DNA of 63,530 nucleotides, taken from the NCBI GenBank assembly GCA_029974315.1, contig JARKSE010000023.1:1-63530 (forward strand), written 5' to 3'. Made by a program: the position numbers and the translations under genes. The notes under the pieces were generated by a model. The model ran no database searches. It saw nothing but the letters and a program-made list of their open reading frames with translations, and had not been told where the DNA came from. Of the stretch, positions 3,902 through 24,053 are shown one piece after another (position 1 is the first letter of the stretch; each line of letters opens with the position of its first letter). This DNA comes from Paludibacteraceae bacterium (GTDB taxonomy: Bacteria > Bacteroidota > Bacteroidia > Bacteroidales > Paludibacteraceae).

Positions 3902-4099
3902 TTATTGTTGTTGAAGTTCACGTTGACGCAATTCTGTCGCAAAACGCGCAATGGTTTTACGAGATTCTCTTATTTGAGCAGGATTGTCAATTGGAGAAAT
4001 GGCGTGATTCAGAGTAAGACGAGATAAGTGTTCTTTTTCTGCGTCTAAACGCTCCTGAATTTCTTTTGTTGTTAATTCTTTTATTTCTCTTGTTTTCAT
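3902..4099 (-). CDS. rpmC: 50S ribosomal protein L29
   Basis: Size, sequence and position between L16 and S17. Confidence 0.96.
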
Positions 4100-4104
4100 A
4101 ATCC

Positions 4105-4536
4105 TTAAACGTTTTGAGTTGGGTCATAATCACGTCTTACGACGAACTTAGTAGCAATTGGTAATTTTTGAGCTGCGAGGCGTAAAGCTTCTTTTGCAAC
4201 TTCAAAAGGTACACCTTCTACTTCAATAAGCATACGGCCAGGGCTAACTGGTGCCACGAAACCTTCTGGAGCACCTTTACCCTTACCCATACGTACGTCA
4301 GCAGGTTTTCTTGTAATTGGTTTGTCTGGAAAAATGCGGATCCAGATTTGACCTTGACGTTGCATGTAACGAGTTACTGCCACACGAGCTGCTTCAATCT
4401 GACGACCTGTAATCCATATCGTTCCTAACGATTTGATACCAAAAGAACCGAACGCCAGCTGATTTCCTCGTTGAGCGATGCCTTTTGGATGGCCATCTTG
4501 CTGTCTTCTGTATTTTGTCTTTTTAGGTTGTAACAT
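4105..4536 (-). CDS. rplP: 50S ribosomal protein L16
   Basis: [33 protein letters not shown]. Confidence 0.98.
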
Positions 4537-4565
4537 AATTTGTATAATTCAAATTCGTTCGATAA

Positions 4566-7183: not shown

Positions 7184-7813
7184 TTATGCGTTAAAATGTT
7201 GTTCAATTTCGGCGATTGCTGACTCAACAAGCACCAAAGCCGAACAATTCAGAATCCCGTAAGTACTTAATTCTGAAACGTTTGAAACTTTTGCCTTTGG
7301 CAAATTACGAGCTGACAAATATACGTTTTTATTTGGTTCTGATAAAATTATAAGTGACTTTTTATCAGATATTTTCAAATTATTTGTCATTGCTACAAAA
7401 TCCTTAGTTTTGGGAGCTTCAAAATTGATTGTATCTACTACAACAATTTCACCCTTAGCTGCTTTATACGACAATGCAGATTTGCGAGCCAATTGTTTTA
7501 GTTTTTTATTCAATTTAAAGCCGTAATCGCGTGGAACTGGTCCAAATACGCGAGCACCGCCAACCAAAACAGGTGAGTTGATATCACCACGACGAGCACC
7601 ACCACCGCCTTTTTGGCGTCCTAATTTGCGAGTTGAACCGGTCATTTCGCTACGTTGTTTAGTTTTGTGTGTGCCTTGGCGTTGGTTAGCCAAATACTGT
7701 TTAACGTCCAAATAAATAGCGTGGTCGTTAGGCTCAATACCGAAAATAGAATCGTTTAATGTAACTTTTCTTCCGGTGTCTTCTCCTTTGATGTTATATA
7801 CACTCAATTCCAT
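7184..7813 (-). CDS. rplD: 50S ribosomal protein L4
   Basis: [34 protein letters not shown]. Confidence 0.97.
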
Positions 7814-8430
7814 TATTTCTCAATTATTACGATTGAACCTTTAGCTCCAGGAACTGATCCTTTGAGTAACAAAAGATTGTGTTCTGGAATTACTTTAATT
7901 ACTTGTAAGTTATGTACGGTTACACGATCGCCACCTGTGCGACCAGCCATACGCATACCTTTAAATACTTTTGATGGATAAGAAGACGCACCAAGCGAAC
8001 CTGGAGCACGCAAGCGGTTATGTTGCCCGTGCGATGTTTGTCCTACCCCACCAAATCCATGACGTTTAACAACGCCTTGGTGTCCTTTTCCTTTTGAGGT
8101 TCCTACAACGTCAACCCAGTCGTTTTCTTCAAACAACTCTACGGTTAAAGCGTCGCCTAATTTGAATTCTCCTTCGAATCCTTTGAACTCAACCAAGTGT
8201 CTCTTTGGAGCTACACCAGCAAGTTTAAAGTGTCCCATTTCAGCTTTGTTGGCATGTTTTTCTTTCTTGTCTTCAAAGCCTAATTGAACAGCCTCATAAC
8301 CGTCAGTTTCGACAGTTTTAACTTGTGTAACTACACAGGGACCAACTTCGAGAACAGTGCATGGTAAATTTTTACCCTCAGCACTGAAAACGGATGTCAT
8401 TCCGATTTTTTTTCCAATTAATCCTGGCAT
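7813..8430 (-). CDS. rplC: 50S ribosomal protein L3
   Basis: [30 protein letters not shown]. Confidence 0.98.
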
Positions 8431-8899: not shown

Positions 8900-11017
8900 T
8901 TACAATAATTCTACGTGACCTTTAGCTTCTGCAACAACTTCTTTAGCAATTGCATTAGAAACCTCTGCGTAATGCGAGAATTCCATTGATGACGTAGCAC
9001 GACCTGATGAAATCGTACGCAAAGCTGTTACATAGCCAAACATTTCTGACAAAGGTACTTTAGCTTTTACAATACGTGCACCAGTACGGCTCGATTCCAT
9101 GCCTTCTACTTGACCACGACGTTTGTTCAAGTCACCAATTACGTCACCCATACTTTCTTCTGGAGTTACAACTTCCAATTTCATAATAGGCTCCAATAGT
9201 GCTGGACGCGCTTTAGCACAAGCATTTTTAAACGCAATTTGAGCACAAATCTCAAACGACAATTGGTCTGAGTCTACTGGGTGGTATGATCCATCAACCA
9301 ACACAACTTTCATTGAATCGACAGGGTAACCTGCTAACACACCATTTTTCATGGCTACACTGAAACCTTTTTGTACTGATGGAATATACTCTTTTGGAAT
9401 GTTACCACCTTTCACTTCGTCTACAAACTGTAAGCTTCCTTCAAAGTTTTCGTCTTTCGGACCAACTTGTACAATGATATCAGCAAATTTACCACGACCA
9501 CCGGTTTGTTTCTTGTAAACCTCGCGCAACGTAACAGTTTGCGTGATAGTTTCTTTATAAGCCACTTGAGGACGACCTTGATTACATTCCACTTTAAATT
9601 CACGCTTTAAACGGTCTATAATAATTTCCAAGTGAAGCTCACCCATACCTTCGATTACCGTTTGACCTGATTGTTCGTCAGTATGAACGGTAAACGTAGG
9701 ATCTTCTTCAGCCAACTTGCTAAGACCGATACCTAATTTATCAATATCGGCTTGCGATTTAGGCTCAACAGAGATACCAATAACTGGAGCCGGGAAGTCC
9801 ATTGATTCCAATACAATTGGTGATTTTTCATCACACAAGGTATCTCCTGTACGAATATCCTTAAAACCAACTCCTGCACCAATATCACCTGCGCCAATAA
9901 CTTCAACTGGATTTTGCTTATTTGAGTGCATTTGGAAGATACGTGAAATACGTTCTTTTTTATCAGTACGAGGATTGTACACATAAGAACCTGCATCCAA
10001 ATGCCCTGAATAGACACGGAAGAAGCACAAACGACCAACATAAGGGTCTGTAGCAATTTTGAATGCCAGAGCAGCCAACGGTTCGTCTTCGCTTGGTGTG
10101 CGTATCAATTTCTTTTCAGGATCACGAGGATCTGTACCATCAATACTTGGTGTGTCAAGTGGAGAAGGCAAATAGGCGCAAACTGCGTCAAGCAAAGGTT
10201 GAACACCTTTATTTTTAAATGATGAACCCAAAATAACTGGGTTAATTTCCATAGCACAAGTGCCTTTACGGATTGCAGCATGAATTTCTGCTTCTGTGAT
10301 GGTAGATGGATTATCAAAATATTTTTCCATCAACGTATCATCTAAGCCTGCAAGTGTTTCAAGCATTTTATCTCTCCACTCTTCCGCTTCTGCTTGTAAA
10401 TCAGCTGGAATTTCTTCAACTTCATACGAAGCTCCCATAGCCTCATTACGCCAAACAAGAGCTTTCATACGAACCAAATCAACTACACCTAAGAAGTTTT
10501 CTTCGGCACCAATCGGAATTTGAATAGGACAAGGATGTGCGCCAAGAACAGTTTTAATCTGAGTTACTACTTCAAAGAAGTTAGCACCAGAACGGTCCAT
10601 TTTGTTCACATAACAAACACGAGGAACATTATATTTATCTGCTTGACGCCACACTGTTTCTGATTGAGGCTCAACACCACCAACCGCACAAAATGTAGCG
10701 ATAGCACCATCAAGTACACGTAACGAACGTTCTACCTCAACGGTAAAGTCAACGTGCCCCGGAGTGTCAATCAAATTCATTTTGTATTTATTACCATCAT
10801 AAATCCAGCTAGTTGTTGTAGCTGCTGACGTAATAGTGATACCACGCTCTTGTTCTTGTGCCATCCAGTCCATGGTAGCAGTACCATCATGCGTCTCACC
10901 AATTTTGTGAGTTAAACCGGTATAGAACAAAATACGTTCAGAGGTAGTAGTTTTACCGGCATCAATGTGAGCCATGATACCGATATTTCTAGTATAGTGC
11001 AAATCTTTTTTTGCCAT
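8900..11017 (-). CDS. fusA: Elongation factor G
   Basis: [24 protein letters not shown]; GTPase motifs; position between rpsG and rpsJ. Confidence 0.99.
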
Positions 11018-11046
11018 TTGTTTAAAATCTTTTTTACCTTAGTTAG

Positions 11047-11523
11047 TTAAAAACGGAAATGAGCGAACGCACGGTTAGCTTCCGCCATACGGTGAATTTC
11101 TTCTTTACGCTTAAAAGCACCGCCTTGGCTGTTATAAGCATCAACGATTTCTGCAGCCAATTTCTCAGCCATAGAACGACCAACTCTTTTACGTGAATAT
11201 AATATAAGGTTTTTCATCGAGATAGATTCTTTTCTATCTGCGCGAATTTCGGTAGGAACTTGGAAAGTAGCACCACCAACACGACGAGATTTAACCTCAA
11301 CTTGTGGTGTAACGTTTTCTAACGCTTTTTTCCAGATTTCGAGAGGAGCAAGTTCTTCATTAGGAAGTTTTGCTTTTACTGCATCAAGAGCACCGTAGAA
11401 GATTTCGAAAGAGGTGTTCTTTTTGCCATCATACATCAAATGGTTTACAAATTTAGTAACCATTACTTCGTTAAAAATTGGGTCTGGTAAAATAACCCGC
11501 TTTTTAGGTGTAGATTTTCTCAT
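11047..11523 (-). CDS. rpsG: 30S ribosomal protein S7
   Basis: [35 protein letters not shown]. Confidence 0.98.
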
Positions 11524-13101: not shown

Positions 13102-13572
13102 TTACAGGGGTTTATTTATTAATTGGTAATTAGCAAGGCGCTGCTCAGCCATAGTTTCATATTTGGTACCAGGCTGTCCGTAATTGGCAAACGGATAGAT
13201 AGAAATACCACCACGAGGCGTAAAAACACCTGTTACTTCGATATATTTGGGTTGCATCAGAGCGATAAGATCTTTCATAATGATATTGACACAATCTTCG
13301 TGAAATGCACCATGGTTGCGAAAACTAAACAAGTAGAGTTTCAAACTTTTACTCTCTACCATTTTCACTGCTGGCAAATAACTGATGCGAATTTCAGCAA
13401 AATCGGGCTGTCCTGTAATGGGGCACAAGCTGGTAAACTCGGGACAGTTGAACCGTACCCAATAGTCGTTTTCGGGATGTTTGTTATCGAACGCTTCAAG
13501 CACTTCGGGCGCATAAGTTTGTTGGTACTCGGTTTTGCGACCAAGTAAACTTAATTGATCATTTAATTCCAT
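13102..13572 (-). CDS. queF: NADPH-dependent 7-cyano-7-deazaguanine (preQ0) reductase
   Basis: [43 protein letters not shown]. Confidence 0.95.
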
Positions 13573-14453: not shown

Positions 14454-15272
14454 ATGGATTCTATCGACAAAACTTTAGATCAATTGCTGGCATCGGGCAT
14501 TGAATTAGGAAAAAGTATTTTAACAGCATTAGCCATTTATATTATTGGGCGCTACGTCATAAAAGGTGTAAACAAATTAGTGGCGCGCTTACTTGATAAA
14601 CGTGACTTAGAGCTTTCGGTACGTTCTTTCTTGCGTAGTTTGGTAAATATTACGTTAACAACATTCTTAATTGTTGCCGTAATTGGTGCATTAGGTGTTG
14701 AAACCACATCATTTGCTGCTTTATTGGCTTCGGCAGGTGTGGCTATTAGTATGGCATTAAGCGGGAATCTTCAAAATTTTGCTGGAGGATTAATTATTCT
14801 GCTAATCAAACCTTTCAAAGTCGGCGATTTTATAGAAGCACAGGGATTAACAGGAACTGTCAAAGAGATTCAAATTTTTCATACCATACTCACCACACCT
14901 GATAATCGTGTTAATTATATTCCCAATGGGGCTCTAAGCAATGGCGTATTAACTAACTACAACAAGCAAACTACCCGCCGGGTTGAATGGATTGTAGGCA
15001 TAGAGTATGGCGAAGATTACGAGAAAGCGAAAGCCTGTATTGAAACTATTTTAAATAGTGATAAACGTATTTTAAAAGAACCCACTACTTTGATTGCTTT
15101 AGGCGCATTAGGTGATCATGGGTTGAAAATAACCGTACGCGGTTGGGTTGATGTAGCCGAGTATTGGGATGTCTATTTCGATATCAATAAAGCTATTTAC
15201 AACACATTTAATAAGGAAGGTATTACATTCCCACTCAACCAACTTACTGTTCATCAAGCAACTAAAAAGTAA
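14454..15272 (+). CDS. Mechanosensitive ion channel, MscS family
   Basis: ALLASAGVAISMALSGNLQNFAGGLIILLIKPFKVGDFIE; TATTTTTG box at 14407-14414 supports the ATG at 14454. Confidence 0.93.
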   Translation: MDSIDKTLDQLLASGIELGKSILTALAIYIIGRYVIKGVNKLVARLLDKRDLELSVRSFLRSLVNITLTTFLIVAVIGALGVETTSFAALLASAGVAISMALSGNLQNFAGGLIILLIKPFKVGDFIEAQGLTGTVKEIQIFHTILTTPDNRVNYIPNGALSNGVLTNYNKQTTRRVEWIVGIEYGEDYEKAKACIETILNSDKRILKEPTTLIALGALGDHGLKITVRGWVDVAEYWDVYFDINKAIYNTFNKEGITFPLNQLTVHQATKK

Positions 15273-15295
15273 AATTTAACAATTTTTTGCTGTTT

Positions 15296-16357
15296 ATGGA
15301 TCAATTACCACTTTGGAAACACTTTTTACTCTATATACCATCACAACTCTTTGGGTGGATTACTTGTTTACGCAACAAAGCGTTTGATTGTAATTTACTA
15401 AAAACAAAACGATTTGACATTCATGTTGTTTCTATTGGCAATATTTCAGTGGGAGGCACAGGGAAAACGCCACATACAGAATATATCATTCGTTTATTGT
15501 CGAATAAAAAGCAACTTGCCGTATTAAGTCGAGGCTATAAGCGAAAAACATCTGGATTTATTTTGGCTGACAGCAATGCTACAGCTCAAACTATCGGCGA
15601 TGAACCATTTCAAATTCTACAGAAATTTCCTGACATTACTGTTGCTGTTGATGAAAAACGTGTACATGGAATTGAACAATTACTCACGCTACCCGTACCA
15701 CCAGAAGTAGTTTTACTCGATGATGCCTTTCAACACCGCCACATAACACCGAGTTTTTCGATTGTGTTAGTAGATTATAATCGCCCAATTCAGAGCGACA
15801 CGTTTTTACCTTTAGGACGCTTAAGGGAATCAACAAAAGGCATTCAGCGTGCACAATGTGTAATTGTTACCAAATGTCCCAAACTTGCGGATTTAGATGA
15901 GATAACTTGGCGAAATGCCTTGCAGCTATCGCAGCATCAACGGATCTTTTTCTCAACATTTGAATATGAAGCTCCTAAACCATTATTTAATAGCTCATTA
16001 CTCAATTGGAAGAAAACTCAAATACAAAAATCTCATATTTTGATAGTAACAGGTGTTGTTTCTGCCACAGATTTGTATGATTACATCACGCCATTTGCAG
16101 AGACTTTACACAAACTTTCGTTTGCTGATCATCATAACTTTACGAAAAAAGATTTAACTGTAATACATGAAATATTTGATAAGCTGCCAGAACCAAAACT
16201 CATTATTACAACAGAGAAAGATGCATCACGCCTATTGCATAATCCATACTTGAATACTGCGATAAAACCATTCTTCTATACGGTAGCTATTAACGTTAAG
16301 ATTTTAAAGAATCAGGGGAAAGAATTTGATCAACTCTTGTTAAATCACGTAAACTAA
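15296..16357 (+). CDS. lpxK: Tetraacyldisaccharide 4'-kinase
   Basis: VVSIGNISVGGTGKTPHTEYIIRLL; VVLLDDAFQHRHI. Confidence 0.95.
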   Translation: MDQLPLWKHFLLYIPSQLFGWITCLRNKAFDCNLLKTKRFDIHVVSIGNISVGGTGKTPHTEYIIRLLSNKKQLAVLSRGYKRKTSGFILADSNATAQTIGDEPFQILQKFPDITVAVDEKRVHGIEQLLTLPVPPEVVLLDDAFQHRHITPSFSIVLVDYNRPIQSDTFLPLGRLRESTKGIQRAQCVIVTKCPKLADLDEITWRNALQLSQHQRIFFSTFEYEAPKPLFNSSLLNWKKTQIQKSHILIVTGVVSATDLYDYITPFAETLHKLSFADHHNFTKKDLTVIHEIFDKLPEPKLIITTEKDASRLLHNPYLNTAIKPFFYTVAINVKILKNQGKEFDQLLLNHVN

Positions 16358-16362
16358 TACAT

Positions 16363-16399
16363 AAAAAAAGGTTGCTAACCGTGTTAGCAACCTTTTTTT
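16363..16399. terminator. Bidirectional rho-independent terminator
   Basis: AAAAAAAGGTTGCTAAC-CGT-GTTAGCAACCTTTTTTT, perfect 10-bp stem between convergent lpxK and the acyl-CoA synthetase gene. Confidence 0.92.
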
Positions 16400-16434
16400 G
16401 TACCCCTTGTTCAATATTTTTAATAATATAGAAC

Positions 16435-18105
16435 TTATTTAAGTAGATTACTATACAAGTAGCGCTTAATACTTTTCTTTGGAGTTTTTTCAAACTCGTT
16501 AGGATATAACTGCACAGCCACTACGTTTTCGTAAGCAGCCACTATTTTATTTAGGTTTTTACGGTTTTCCTCCATAATGAGTTGCAGTTCAGTCTCTGAA
16601 ATACTCGCTTCGTCCACAGCATCATAATCAGGATAAACAAAAGCCACCAACTTATTATCAGCATTTTCAATAATCAAACTCTCCATTACAAATGGCATAT
16701 TGTTTAGCTTAGCTTCTATTTCTTCAGGATAAATATTTTGTCCTGATGGACCTAAGAGCATACTCTTGTTACGACCACGAATATAAATGTAACCATCTTT
16801 ATCAATGGTTCCCATATCGCCGGTATGCATCCAGCCATCCTCTTCAAGCACAGCTTTTGTAGCTTCCTCATTTTTGTAGTAACCTTTCATCACGTGTTCA
16901 CCACGAATCATAATTTCGCCCACTTCTGTATAAGGATCGTTTGACATAATTTTCACATCCATAACTGGCAAAATCTTACCTACAGAAGTTAATTTGAATT
17001 GATCCCAAGGTGCGTAACTAATTAGTGGAGCACACTCCGTCATACCATAACCGACAGTAAATTTAAACCCTATACGATGGAAAAACTCTTCTACTTCTGG
17101 ATTTAATGGCGCACCACCAATAATAACTTCTTTAAATTCGCCACCAAATGCAGTGCTTAATTTTTTACGAATAGTGCCTAATATCGTATTATCAATCACA
17201 GGAACACTCAATGCCCAGCGCATAGAACGACTATTAAGCAAAGGTTGAATCTGTTTACGATATATTTTTTCGATAATCAACGGTACTGTAAAAATTACTG
17301 TTGGTTTTACTTCGGCAAATGCTTTTAATAAAATTTTAGGAGATGGAATTTTTCCCAAATACGTGGTATGGGCACCTACACAAAATGAAGTTAAAAAATC
17401 GAACGCACAACCATAAGCGTGAGCCAATGGTAAAAATGCTAACGCACGATCACCCTTGCGAAGTAACTCAGTAGTAATACCAAAAGAGATATTTCCCGCC
17501 AAGTTGTTAGCTGTAAGCATTACGCCCTTACTAAAACCTGTGGTTCCCGACGTATAACTAATACAAACTAATTCTGAATTAGGAATGGTTGGATATAATA
17601 CTTCAGCTGCAGTAAAACCATCAGGATAACGTTTTTCAAATGTTTTAGGCAATGCTTTTGTTACTTTCTGTATTGTTTCACCATCTTTCTGATGTAAACA
17701 ACGGAAGTCGTTCAACGAAAAAACAGCACGCAATTCGTCCATTTTTTCTTCTTCAAGCGTTTCCCAAATGTTATCGCTGACAAACAATAAAGTAGAATCA
17801 GAGTGATTAACAATGTGATGAACATCATTTGGATTAAAGTCTTGAAGAATAGGCACAATCACAGCACCATACGTTACAGCAGCGATGTAAGTCACACACC
17901 AACTTGTACCGTTTTTGCCAATCAATGAAATTTTTGCGCCTTGGTCAATACCAATAGTATCGAATAGTAGATGCAATTTGGCAACTTCTGTACCCACTTC
18001 TCCATACGTGAGCGTATGTTCTTCAATATAGTCAGTAAAAGCAGGAAGTTCCCAATTATCTCTAATACTGCTTTCAAATAGACGAATAAAATTTTCTTTT
18101 ATCAT
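16435..18105 (-). CDS. AMP-binding long-chain fatty acid-CoA ligase
   Basis: CISYTSGTTGFSKGVMLT; GYGMTECAPLISY; GWMHTGDMGTIDKDGYIYIRGRNK. Confidence 0.9.
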   Translation of the reverse strand: MIKENFIRLFESSIRDNWELPAFTDYIEEHTLTYGEVGTEVAKLHLLFDTIGIDQGAKISLIGKNGTSWCVTYIAAVTYGAVIVPILQDFNPNDVHHIVNHSDSTLLFVSDNIWETLEEEKMDELRAVFSLNDFRCLHQKDGETIQKVTKALPKTFEKRYPDGFTAAEVLYPTIPNSELVCISYTSGTTGFSKGVMLTANNLAGNISFGITTELLRKGDRALAFLPLAHAYGCAFDFLTSFCVGAHTTYLGKIPSPKILLKAFAEVKPTVIFTVPLIIEKIYRKQIQPLLNSRSMRWALSVPVIDNTILGTIRKKLSTAFGGEFKEVIIGGAPLNPEVEEFFHRIGFKFTVGYGMTECAPLISYAPWDQFKLTSVGKILPVMDVKIMSNDPYTEVGEIMIRGEHVMKGYYKNEEATKAVLEEDGWMHTGDMGTIDKDGYIYIRGRNKSMLLGPSGQNIYPEEIEAKLNNMPFVMESLIIENADNKLVAFVYPDYDAVDEASISETELQLIMEENRKNLNKIVAAYENVVAVQLYPNEFEKTPKKSIKRYLYSNLLK

Positions 18106-18424
18106 TTTCGAATAATCAATAAATTATACATAAAATTCGGTGACAAAATTACTCATTTTTTTTAATTCTGTGCACATTTATGTATAAAAATGCACATTTT
18201 AACAAATTTTGAGCAATAAATATCAGATAATCAAGGAAATAAGTAAAAGAATTTTCGGATAAAACAACCTCTTCTTAAACAAATCAACAAAACAACTTTA
18301 TGGAAGCTAAAGTATTATAAAACAAGCTTTAAGAAGTATTTAAAACAATAATTAACGCATAATAAATAAGAACTCCAATTAGGTTAAAATTTGTTACAGA
18401 GTAAAATAATTGCACATTTATACC

Positions 18425-18432
18425 TATTTTTG
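18425..18432 (+). promoter_or_regulatory. Bacteroidota-type -7 box (TATTTTTG)
   Basis: 55 nt upstream of the ATG at 18487; supports that start over 18391. Confidence 0.5.
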
Positions 18433-18486
18433 TGCCGTTTTTCTCAGAGAACATCAAAGCAGTATAAATTTAGGTTTTTAAGACAT

Positions 18487-21400
18487 ATGAAAAAACATCT
18501 TTTCATTACCAAAGGATTACTCCTTTTGGCACTTGTATGTATAAGTGTAAACATACATGCTGAAGAGTATTTTATTCAAAATCAAACTCGTACATTTTCA
18601 AGTAATGAGAATTACGATGTTCCAATTAATGGTATTCCTGGCATGTTAATCTATTCCATGAGCGAAAGTGGGACTTATAATGCCTTATGTAAATCCTCTT
18701 TTAAAATTTTTGCTTCTACAGATGGTCAAAACTTCTCAGAACTCGCTTCATATACACGTTTTAATACATCTGCCATTATATATTTAAACCCTAATGTCAG
18801 ATATTTGAGATTTAATTTTACTAAGTGTTGGTCAAGTAACCTCAAGTGCAATCTCAATTTTTCCGTTACCAAGGCACTTTCCGTAAATCCTACATCGTTA
18901 AATTTAGGTGATGTTTTCGTTGGTAATGAACCTAACACAAAGACTTTTACACTGCACTATTCCAATAGCGCCGCTACAGCCACCACCTACAATCTCACAT
19001 GCTCAAATCCTTATGTTACATTTTCTCCTACATCGGTTCATGCCAATGCACAAACCAATGGAGCACAGATAATTTCTGTTGGCTATAGTAGCAGTTCACC
19101 AGCCACGGGCGTCACCAACGCGACACTAATCGCAACTAACGCTAATCCTACTACACAAACAGCTCCTGTTGCTATATCAATAAATGTAAAAAAATACACC
19201 CAAACACTCAGTTGGAAATCAGGTATTGATGTTATGTCGGTGGGCGACGAAGTGATAGAAGCCGCCTCGACTTCTACTAATTTACCGATAACCTACTCGT
19301 CCAGTAATTCTGCAATTATTGAAGTTATAAACGGAAAATTGGTTGCCAAAACAACAGGAACAGCTACCATCACCGCCACACAAGCTGGTAACGACATCTG
19401 GGAATCGGTTACCTCTACAAAGACCATCGAGGTTACCCAAAAAGTTGTACAACGTATTGTTTGGAATGATGACTTATCACGCTTACGTGTTGGTGACATA
19501 GCTACATTATCGGCTTATGCTGTTGACAACGTTACTGGGTTAGCTACCTGATTACCAATTACATACAGCATTTCTACTACTGGAATTGTTACCCTGAACG
19601 GCACTCAACTCACAGCTAATGCTGAAGGAGAAGTTATTATAACAGCACATCAAGTAGGTAATACTAATTACGCTGCAGCTACTTACCACTTAAACGCTCG
19701 CGTTTTGGCTGCTAGTAGACAAACGTGTAATCCACTCGTTTTAGACGCTGGTGAAAGTAGCATATTAACCATTGATAGTAAAGAATACACCTTAGCTGGA
19801 GAGCCTGGATCTCTTACGTTTGACGCTAAATGCGTTGATTTATTGTTGTTTTGGGGAGGTGATTTGAAAGTTGCACAATATGTAAATGGATCGTGGATAG
19901 ATGTATTTTCACAATGTCCTACAAAAGATACATATACACATTACGGTCCATTTCAACTAAACAGACAAGCTACTAAACTGAAATTTTACACAGTCACAGG
20001 AGCTACGGGATATAAATACTTCCGTGACATCAAAGTTACCTTAGCTAAATATGTAGAAGTCAATAAATCTACGATCAATTTTGATATGCAAGCTGGTGCT
20101 TCAGCGTCCAATTCATTTACAGTAAACTACTCTAACTTGAATGATGTACTCATGGTCAACCACAGCTCAAATGCGTTCAGTTTTTCACCTTCTGTATCTA
20201 CACTTGGTAATGGCTGTGGCGATAAAGGTACACAAACCTTTAATGTCGCTCTCAACGCTCCTATTGGAGGGAATTATGAAGATATTATAACGTTTTCGGA
20301 TGGTACCAATTCGACTCAATTGACTGTTACCGCAAACGTCACAAAACACCCACAAAATATTACGTGGAATCAAGATATCAATATCAACATAGAAAACTCA
20401 CCACTCACGCTTATGGCTACAGCTAGCAGCGGCTTGCCTGTGAGTTATACGTCATCCAATCCCGCCATAGCAACTATTGACAATGGACAATTGGTGCTAG
20501 TAAACAGTGGAAATGTGAGCATTACAGCTTCGCAAGCAGGTAATGGAATATATGAAGCTGCTACCAATGTGACAAAAACAATCACAGTTATCAAACCTGT
20601 TGCATTAGCAACCCCTATAATCAGCATCACCGGTACTACCTACAACGATAGCGTGCGCTCTGATGCCAACAAATTCGTCTCCATTGCTTGTAACGATGCT
20701 ACACCACACACCATCTACTATACAACCAACGGCTCTATACCAACTACAGAGTCACTTATTTATAGTGTTCCATTTGAAATTACCACAACAACCACTGTAA
20801 CCGCTATAGCAATACCCAATAATTTAATCCATTATAAACCTAGTGAAATTGCAAGTAAGACCTTTGTAGTATTTGATTGCCAATCGTACGTCATCACACA
20901 TTTTACAAATACTTCAGACAACTCAACCACTATCAATTGGAATAACACTTTAGCAAGTAATGGAATTTTACATTATTGGATAGGAAGTGCTACAACAGTA
21001 ACCAACTTATCAGAAGTAGCAGTAAATGGCACAGATTATACTTGTTATGATTTAACACCTGCAACAACCTATTATTTCCAACTAAATGATCATTACGGTT
21101 GTACATCGGCTATTGACAGTATAACAACGAAAGCCATTTACATATCTTCACTCGAGTTATTTAGAACAGCTGTTGGTTGGAGTATGACACAATTGATTTC
21201 GCTGACAAGTAGCGGTCTAACAGGAACTATTACGGCAACGTTATCAAACAACAACAATAACACATTCACGCTGAACAAAACAATATTAAGCAGTAGTGGT
21301 GGTGATATTGCAATCACCTTTGCTCCTACAACGGCAGGATCTCATACGGCAACGCTTACAGTTACCAGTGATACTGATAACACATCACGTACTATTATTT

Positions 21401-23211
21401 TAAACGGAAACGCAACTGTTAGCACGATCGAAAAACCTCAGGTTAAATCTGAATCAACTCTACTTTTAAGCAACACCCCAATTAATGGTTCTATCTACGT
21501 GTACGATGAACACGGAGTACTTATTCCAACGGCAATTACATCTGTTTTAAACAATCACGAGATACGTTTCACACAGCCTGATGCTTTATCAAATTTGTCG
21601 TGCAAAGAGATTAAAATCACGGTAAAAGATAACACCAATGCACTACTTGATGAGTGACCATACAAAGTTCCAATAATTATTTCAAGGGATTCTACTACGG
21701 GCGAAATAAATATCGATACCGACTCATGTACTACATGTGACATTACAACATTAAGTGCAGCTGTCTTAAGCAAAGGAAGCGACACCAAAACATTCCGTGA
21801 TGTATATGTTACATCTGGAGCAAGTATCCGTATCCCTGAAAACAAGGAGCTCAAAGTTCGCAATTTTTACCTCCAATCTATTGATGACAGCATAAGTTCT
21901 GCTTATTTAACAAGTCATAAAGGAAAAATTAGTTGTTCTCAACAAATTATTCATATCAAACGCATTACAAATAATAGCCGATATTTCTTCTTCTCCTTAC
22001 CATACGTTTGCGCTATGCAAGATATTAAACTGAGCAACGGCAAACCCATAGGCATTTATGGTACTGATTGGATAATCAGAGAATATAACGGCTTACAACG
22101 AGGAACCGCGCCACAAACTAATAATTGGCGATCACTAGCTATTACGGATAGCCTGATAGCTGGTAAAGGTTATATCATTGCACTCGGTAATAACGTGGAG
22201 TGTGAAATACAATTCCCTGGATACTTACGATCAACCGACCAATTAATAGAAAGTACTTACCAAGTGACTGCTTATGGCTGTGAACCTGAATACGATGCAA
22301 TCAAACCCAACAATAAAGGCTGGAATTTAATAGGGATACCATCTATCAGCTCATTATACAGCAATAGCACAATAACAGTAAATGGTAATAATATACAATA
22401 CATCACAGCACCGAATGATGATGGTAGAACGTATAAACAAAAAAAGGTAAATGAATATACATTTGATCCATTCCGTTGTTTCTTTGTACAAGTAAATACC
22501 ACCGGGAACCTCAACTTCGCTACAAATGGAGTTATTGAGGCGCCTCGCAAAGCTGCTGCTACACGCATTAGCAACGAAATTAGATTGACGGTAACTGGTA
22601 AAAATGGTAGTGACTACACTGAAATTATTTTAGGAGATAACCAAACCACAGATTATACGATTGGACACGATTTAGAAAAAATGTATGCAGCTGCCACCAT
22701 CCCTCAAGTTTATTCTAAAATGAACGGTTATAGATTGGCTTTTAATGCATTACCTATAAGCGATGCCTTTTATATTCCACTGGGTTTTTATGCACCAGTT
22801 ACAGGCACATACACTATTGATGCCACTAATAATAGCGAATACGGTGTCTATTTGATTGATAACATTACAGGGGAAACAACCAATTTAGCACAAACACCAT
22901 ACCGTTTTGAAGCAAATAAAGGATTAACCGAAACCCGTTTTGCTATCAGTGTAGAACAACGTATAGCTACTACTATTAAGCCAACGACTAATGGACAACA
23001 GCCTATTGCTCTAATGTCGACAGGAGGAATATTAAAACTTCAAAATTTACCAATTGGGGCTTCGATTCAAATTAGCGATGCTATCGGTAGAGTGGTTTAC
23101 ACAGCTCGCACACAGTCTGAAATATTAAACGTCACGTTGCCCGTACAAGGCGTATACAACATCAAATTAGCATATAATGGACAAACTCAAATTGTACGTA
23201 CTATCCGCTAA
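18487..23211 (+). pseudogene. Large secreted Ig-like-repeat surface protein with T9SS-like C-terminal domain, interrupted by two in-frame TGA codons (19549-19551 and 21655-21657)
   Basis: Track ORFs 18391-19551, 19705-21657 and 22015-23211 are all in the same frame (start offsets 1314 and 2310 nt, both divisible by 3). The DNA between them has no other stop. Signal peptide MKKHLFITKGLLLLALVCISVNIHA; C-terminus QISDAIGRVVYTARTQSEILNVTLPVQGVYNIKLAYNGQTQIVRTIR. Confidence 0.85.
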
Positions 23212-23229
23212 ATAGACAAAAGCAGCACC

Positions 23230-23260
23230 AAAAAAGGAGAATTCACATTCTCCTTTTTTT
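23230..23260. terminator. Bidirectional rho-independent terminator
   Basis: AAAAAAGGAGAAT-TCAC-ATTCTCCTTTTTTT between convergent genes. Confidence 0.9.
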
Positions 23261-23267
23261 ATTGTTC

Positions 23268-24053
23268 TCATAAACCCAAAGATTTAGCTTCGTCCCAAAA
23301 AACATCCATCTCTTCGAGACTCATCTGTCGTAAATCTCTGCCTTGTTTTATAGTGCGCTCTTCGAGATAATTAAAGCGACGAATAAACTTTTTATTAGTT
23401 TTTTCTAAGGCATTTTCAGGATTGATTTTATACAAACGAGCAGCATTTATCAAGCTAAATAGCAAATCGCCAAATTCGCCTTCTAAATTATCAGACTCCT
23501 CCTTAAGAGCTTCCACCTCAAATTCAGCAATCTCTTCTTTTACTTTATCCCAAACTTGTTCTCGTTGTGCCCAATCGAAACCGACACTGCGTGCTTTATC
23601 TTGAATACGATGCGCTTTTATTAAGGCGGGTAAAGCCGTAGGCACACCACTTAACACACTGGCATTGCCACCTTTTTCTTTAAGTTTCAGTTGTTCCCAG
23701 TTTTGCTTTACAGCTTCAGGCGTATTGGCTTCGGTTGTTCCATAAATATGTGGATGGCGGTAAATAAGCTTTTCAACCAATACATCACACACATCTTTGA
23801 TATCAAAATCGCCGGTTTCACTTCCCATTTGTGCATAAAACACAACGTGCAGTAACACATCGCCAAGCTCTTTTTTTATATTTTTAAGATCTCTATTAGA
23901 GATAGCATCTGCCAGTTCGTAAACCTCTTCAATAGTATTGGAGCGTAAAGATTCAAAGGTTTGTTTTTTATCCCAAGGACATTTTTCGCGCAATTCACTC
24001 ATCACGTCGAGTAGGCGCGAAAACGATTCTAATTGTTCAACTCTTGTGTGCAT
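23268..24053 (-). CDS. mazG: Nucleoside triphosphate pyrophosphohydrolase
   Basis: LREKCPWDKKQTFESLRSNTIEEVYELADAI; KKELGDVLLHVVFYAQ; bona fide TGA stop after DEAKSLGL. Confidence 0.96.
   Translation of the reverse strand: MHTRVEQLESFSRLLDVMSELREKCPWDKKQTFESLRSNTIEEVYELADAISNRDLKNIKKELGDVLLHVVFYAQMGSETGDFDIKDVCDVLVEKLIYRHPHIYGTTEANTPEAVKQNWEQLKLKEKGGNASVLSGVPTALPALIKAHRIQDKARSVGFDWAQREQVWDKVKEEIAEFEVEALKEESDNLEGEFGDLLFSLINAARLYKINPENALEKTNKKFIRRFNYLEERTIKQGRDLRQMSLEEMDVFWDEAKSLGL

Follow-up and report, generated by a model that had tools for sequence, protein, structure and literature searches.

A large surface-protein gene with two in-frame TGA codons in a Paludibacteraceae draft genome is probably an early pseudogene

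A gene for a large surface protein in the draft genome of a Paludibacteraceae bacterium (18487–23211, plus strand) is open in a single frame except for two in-frame TGA codons. We conclude that it is probably a dispensable accessory gene, recently struck by two nonsense mutations and in an early stage of decay. Among the options that an initial sequence-only reading had listed, double nonsense mutation agrees best with the data: homologues are intact, the gene is absent from a sister species, and TAG and TAA interrupt other genes in this genome.

The window analysed here, a stretch of 63,530 nucleotides, is one contig (C177) of a genome bin that comprises 1.63 Mb in 205 contigs and is 82% complete with 6.4% contamination. 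Joined translation places the open reading frames (ORFs) at 18391–19551, 19705–21657 and 22015–23211 in one frame, which from 18487 onwards spans 1,574 residues and ends with a TAA at 23209–23211. The first in-frame TGA is codon 355 (19549–19551, plus strand; context ACC TGA TTA) and the second is codon 1057 (21655–21657, plus strand; context GAG TGA CCA). There is no frameshift across the 4.7 kb of the gene, and its coding composition is kept to the end. Using a hexamer coding score trained on other long ORFs from the same bin, we obtained 0.19 for the joined frame, with the two shifted frames at −0.72 and −1.08; the score is positive on either side of the first stop (+0.46 and +0.35) and of the second (+0.18 and +0.07). 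Thus, the stretch represents one ancestral gene and not a chance arrangement. The sequence-only reading had described three ORFs in one frame with TGA as the only stop and without a frameshift, and this description is confirmed. It had also stressed that both interruptions are TGA and never TAA or TAG, which is correct as seen but fails as a signal: 27% of the single-base changes that would create a stop in this gene give TGA, two of two stops would be TGA by chance around 7% of the time, and the all-TGA pattern is not significant relative to mutational opportunity.

The domain layout of the joined protein (all features on the plus strand) shows where the stops fall. A signal-peptide-like N terminus, recognized by reading the translation, occupies residues 1–25 (18487–18561). 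Internal repeat alignment identifies three Ig-like repeats, starting at residues 239 (19201–19452), 323 (19453–19716) and 624 (20356–20598), and these are followed by a chitobiase/beta-hexosaminidase C-terminal-like domain (PF13290; CHB_HEX_C/Fn3-associated; E 4.7e-11) at residues 728–777 (20668–20817). A conserved C-terminal region (residues 1030–1563; 21574–23175) shares at most 38% identity with the family's uninterrupted proteins. At the end of the protein, a match to the T9SS type A sorting domain (TIGR04183; 23041–23199; E 0.0022) reaches 17.9 bits, below the cut-off of 23, and the PF18962 matches found in the bin do not include this gene. The earlier expectation of a signal peptide at the start and a T9SS-like domain at the end therefore stands for its first half, with one signal-peptide-like stretch present, whereas the sorting domain remains a weak, sub-threshold assignment.

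Each stop lies within a conserved domain and not between domains, and truncated products would therefore break off partway through a domain. The internal Ig-like repeats align as LPITYSSSNSAI / xLPITYSISTTGI / LPVSYTSSNPAI, in which x is the first TGA, in the middle of repeat 2; glycine is the commonest residue in this column among aligned relatives (8 of 30 rows). The second TGA, inside the conserved C-terminal region, directly precedes a conserved YKVPI motif, and relatives carry S, I, T, N, Q or K at this position. No signal peptide is present in ORFs 2 and 3, in which the first ATG comes 178 and approximately 119 codons, respectively, after the stop; both points make separate expression of these parts unlikely.

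Relatives of the protein are uninterrupted. A search of 300 genomes of the family returned roughly 115 matches at E ≤ 1e-40, none of which has an internal stop except the window gene itself. The C-terminal region is common to many large proteins of the same bacterial family, and in two family members (G066:C33 and G012:C27) the N- and C-terminal parts occur in one open frame. The closest homologue is only 38% identical, with no close orthologue among the family genomes, and a scan of the genome contigs returned a single distant relative (24% identity). No solved structures of relatives were found at E ≤ 0.01.

In a sister species of the same genus (G001), the gene is missing as a unit and both flanks are kept. 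The left neighbour, an acyl-CoA-ligase-like gene (window 16435–18227), and the right neighbour, mazG (window 23229–24053), have 83% DNA identity to their counterparts there, which are separated by 77 bp; window positions 18228–23228 correspond to a slot near G001:C11 88796–88872. A terminator-like hairpin 3′ of the surface-protein gene (23230–23259, plus strand) is common to the convergent mazG, and in the sister species the conserved right flank starts with the matching stretch. That the two neighbours are only 77 bp apart indicates that the surface-protein gene is dispensable in this genus. The gene may have been gained here or lost in the sister species, and the slot between the acyl-CoA-ligase-like gene and mazG may be a place where surface genes come and go. 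Insertion flagged by direct repeats at the gene ends was rejected, as only weak matches were present.

Other genes of the bin are interrupted as well. In a sample of about 612 kb, we found four further genes that are cut by one in-frame stop (TAG in three, TAA in one and TGA in none), counts that are approximate because they are based on coding scores and inspection, and because one case, a lipoprotein-like gene, has no family match. A P-type Ca2+-ATPase-like gene on segment L114 (G000:C113:19901–39800; gene at 15123–17546, minus strand) has a mid-gene TAG at 16436 that is spanned by a TIGR01522 match (E 4e-172); it also changes frame near the C terminus, which is ordinary decay. On the same segment, an aminotransferase class IV gene (7249–7842, minus strand) has a TAG at 7653. 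A DUF2147 gene (L111, G000:C31:1–19900; 10994–11494, plus strand) is cut by a TAG at 11117, right after the signal peptide, and the lipoprotein-like gene (L100, G000:C195:15001–34900; 3961–4542, minus strand) by a TAA at 4401. The ATPase gene is missing from the syntenic place in the sister species, and the DUF2147 and lipoprotein-like genes have no match in the searched parts of that genome. When the same census was run on the sister genome (about 272 kb), inspection gave no convincing case. As TAG and TAA cut the other genes, interruption in this bin is not specific to TGA. The automatic candidates did not include the window gene's second TGA, owing to the low score downstream of it (0.07), and the census therefore overlooks some cases. 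At the rate of the remaining sample, the expected number of stops in the surface-protein gene is 0.035 and the probability of two or more is around 6e-4, a value that is post hoc because the stops were what led to the choice of this gene. The pair of stops points to relaxed selection on this gene, which it fits better than evenly scattered base errors. Elsewhere in the bin, contig C69 (L127; G000:C69:1–15000 of 15790) has the same junctions mirrored on both strands, for example at 13371+ and 2420−, and looks like a long palindrome, either artificial or true.

We weighed several other explanations. Three separate genes that share a frame by chance would be compatible with the ORF list alone; however, the coding score is continuous, domains span both stops, and the N- and C-terminal parts are joined in one open frame in the two family members noted above. 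Homologues with domains that align across both stops refute independent genes, and we give this explanation hardly any weight. Lower still is the probability that TGA has been reassigned to an amino acid, in the organism or in this gene. The frequent glycine in the column of the first stop recalls the code in which UGA encodes glycine, known from Gracilibacteria and related bacteria (PMC8629427, PMC4032931), but the likeness to the code of Gracilibacteria and Absconditabacteria is confined to that site. The second site is variable in relatives. Release factor 2 is present here (prfB, 454.8 bits), and TGA is in use as a terminal stop: in the 612-kb sample, 311 long ORFs end in TAA (241), TGA (40) or TAG (30). 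We found 42 tRNA genes in the bin and read their anticodons with ARAGORN; none is UCA, although absence from an 82%-complete bin is not proof, and the tRNA-Gly anticodons are the ordinary TCC, GCC and CCC. The use of terminal TGA with release factor 2 present refutes general reassignment. The sequence-only reading had taken TGA to be a true stop elsewhere in the window, which is borne out by mazG and other window genes, and its rejection of genome-wide recoding is supported by release factor 2, by the 42 ordinary tRNAs without UCA and by selA, which was not found in the 82%-complete bin. On this last result, we also rejected a selenoprotein reading.

Low-level or programmed UGA readthrough, which would yield three nested isoforms with the C-terminal sorting region in the longest only, is improbable on present evidence. 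In its favour, both stops are TGA, and the frames downstream of them are still coding-like. UGA followed by C is a leaky context, and this context is found at the second stop; the first stop has UGA-U. Against readthrough, the stops are in the middle of domains, no homologue carries them, and other genes are interrupted by TAG and TAA. No stable RNA structure was detected 3′ of either stop (z −0.24 and +1.10) and no Rfam element at the locus. Neither a suppressor tRNA nor a UGA-reading tRNA-Trp variant was found in the bin: a tRNA-Trp variant with a 4-bp anticodon stem has been described (PMC13092985), but the tRNA-Trp(CCA) here has the full 5-bp stem (C27–G43) and G24, which rules out both that form and the Hirsh G24A change. 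Furthermore, two successive low-efficiency events would leave almost no full-length protein. In-frame stops have been reported to be widespread in bacterial genes, with purifying selection acting on many of them and most not lasting long (Belinky et al. 2021; PMC7918605), and given this precedent weak readthrough may in principle occur. The stops in that study resemble ours in lying within an otherwise coding frame, and for the most part they last only as long as polymorphisms within populations; the signs relied on there were conservation of the stop in orthologues and dN/dS below 1, whereas here no relative has the stops. The nested isoforms suggested by the sequence-only reading are thus not supported, given the mid-domain stops, the TAG and TAA interruptions elsewhere, the absence from the sister species and the stop-free homologues. 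More doubtful again is the idea that leaky UGA stops would hold down the dosage of a large adhesin, such that few ribosomes would make the full protein and the rest would export an N-terminal fragment.

The main rival to an early pseudogene is base error in the draft assembly. One or both TGA codons could be base errors, or minority or mixed-strain alleles, with the gene intact in the cell; we consider this unlikely, but more plausible than any of the alternatives above. The bin is fragmented, incomplete and partly contaminated, its contig C69 resembles an artificial palindrome, and single stops cut other genes of the bin, while the sister genome, which is better assembled, yielded no convincing case in about 272 kb. 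Against this, the sample contains more than 300 long ORFs without interruption, and both stops fall together in a single gene, one that the sister species lacks. Random errors would hit mostly core genes. A frameshift is also present in another of the interrupted genes.

In the early-pseudogene explanation that we favour, an accessory surface-protein gene would recently have acquired two nonsense mutations, release factor 2 would halt translation at codon 355, and what is made would be an N-terminal fragment, exported and broken off within an Ig-like repeat. As such a fragment would be without the conserved C-terminal region and the sorting signal, no functional surface protein is expected. 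We infer that the living population truly carries the stops and that they terminate translation efficiently. Because the 4.7 kb contain no frameshift and stay coding-like in composition to the end, the stops must be either very young or tolerated; these same features, together with the lack of a close orthologue (best, 38%), count against an early pseudogene.

As in nonsense pseudogenes, the gene has premature stops relative to uninterrupted homologues and is absent from the syntenic place in a close relative. Young bacterial nonsense pseudogenes also have an intact-looking frame, single stops, a dispensable gene and further genes of the same genome that have been hit; the gene described here differs in that both its stops are of one type and its frame has not yet shifted. 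Among the large Ig-like, T9SS-secreted surface proteins of Bacteroidales, it is familiar in its signal-peptide-like start, Ig-like repeats, CHB_HEX_C/Fn3-like domains and weak sorting domain, but it is interrupted twice and its sorting domain falls below the family cut-off. On its own, the finding has little significance, as one more decaying accessory surface gene in a draft bin. The lesson is that searches for recoding should compare all three stops genome-wide, and include a sister species, before two TGA codons are interpreted.
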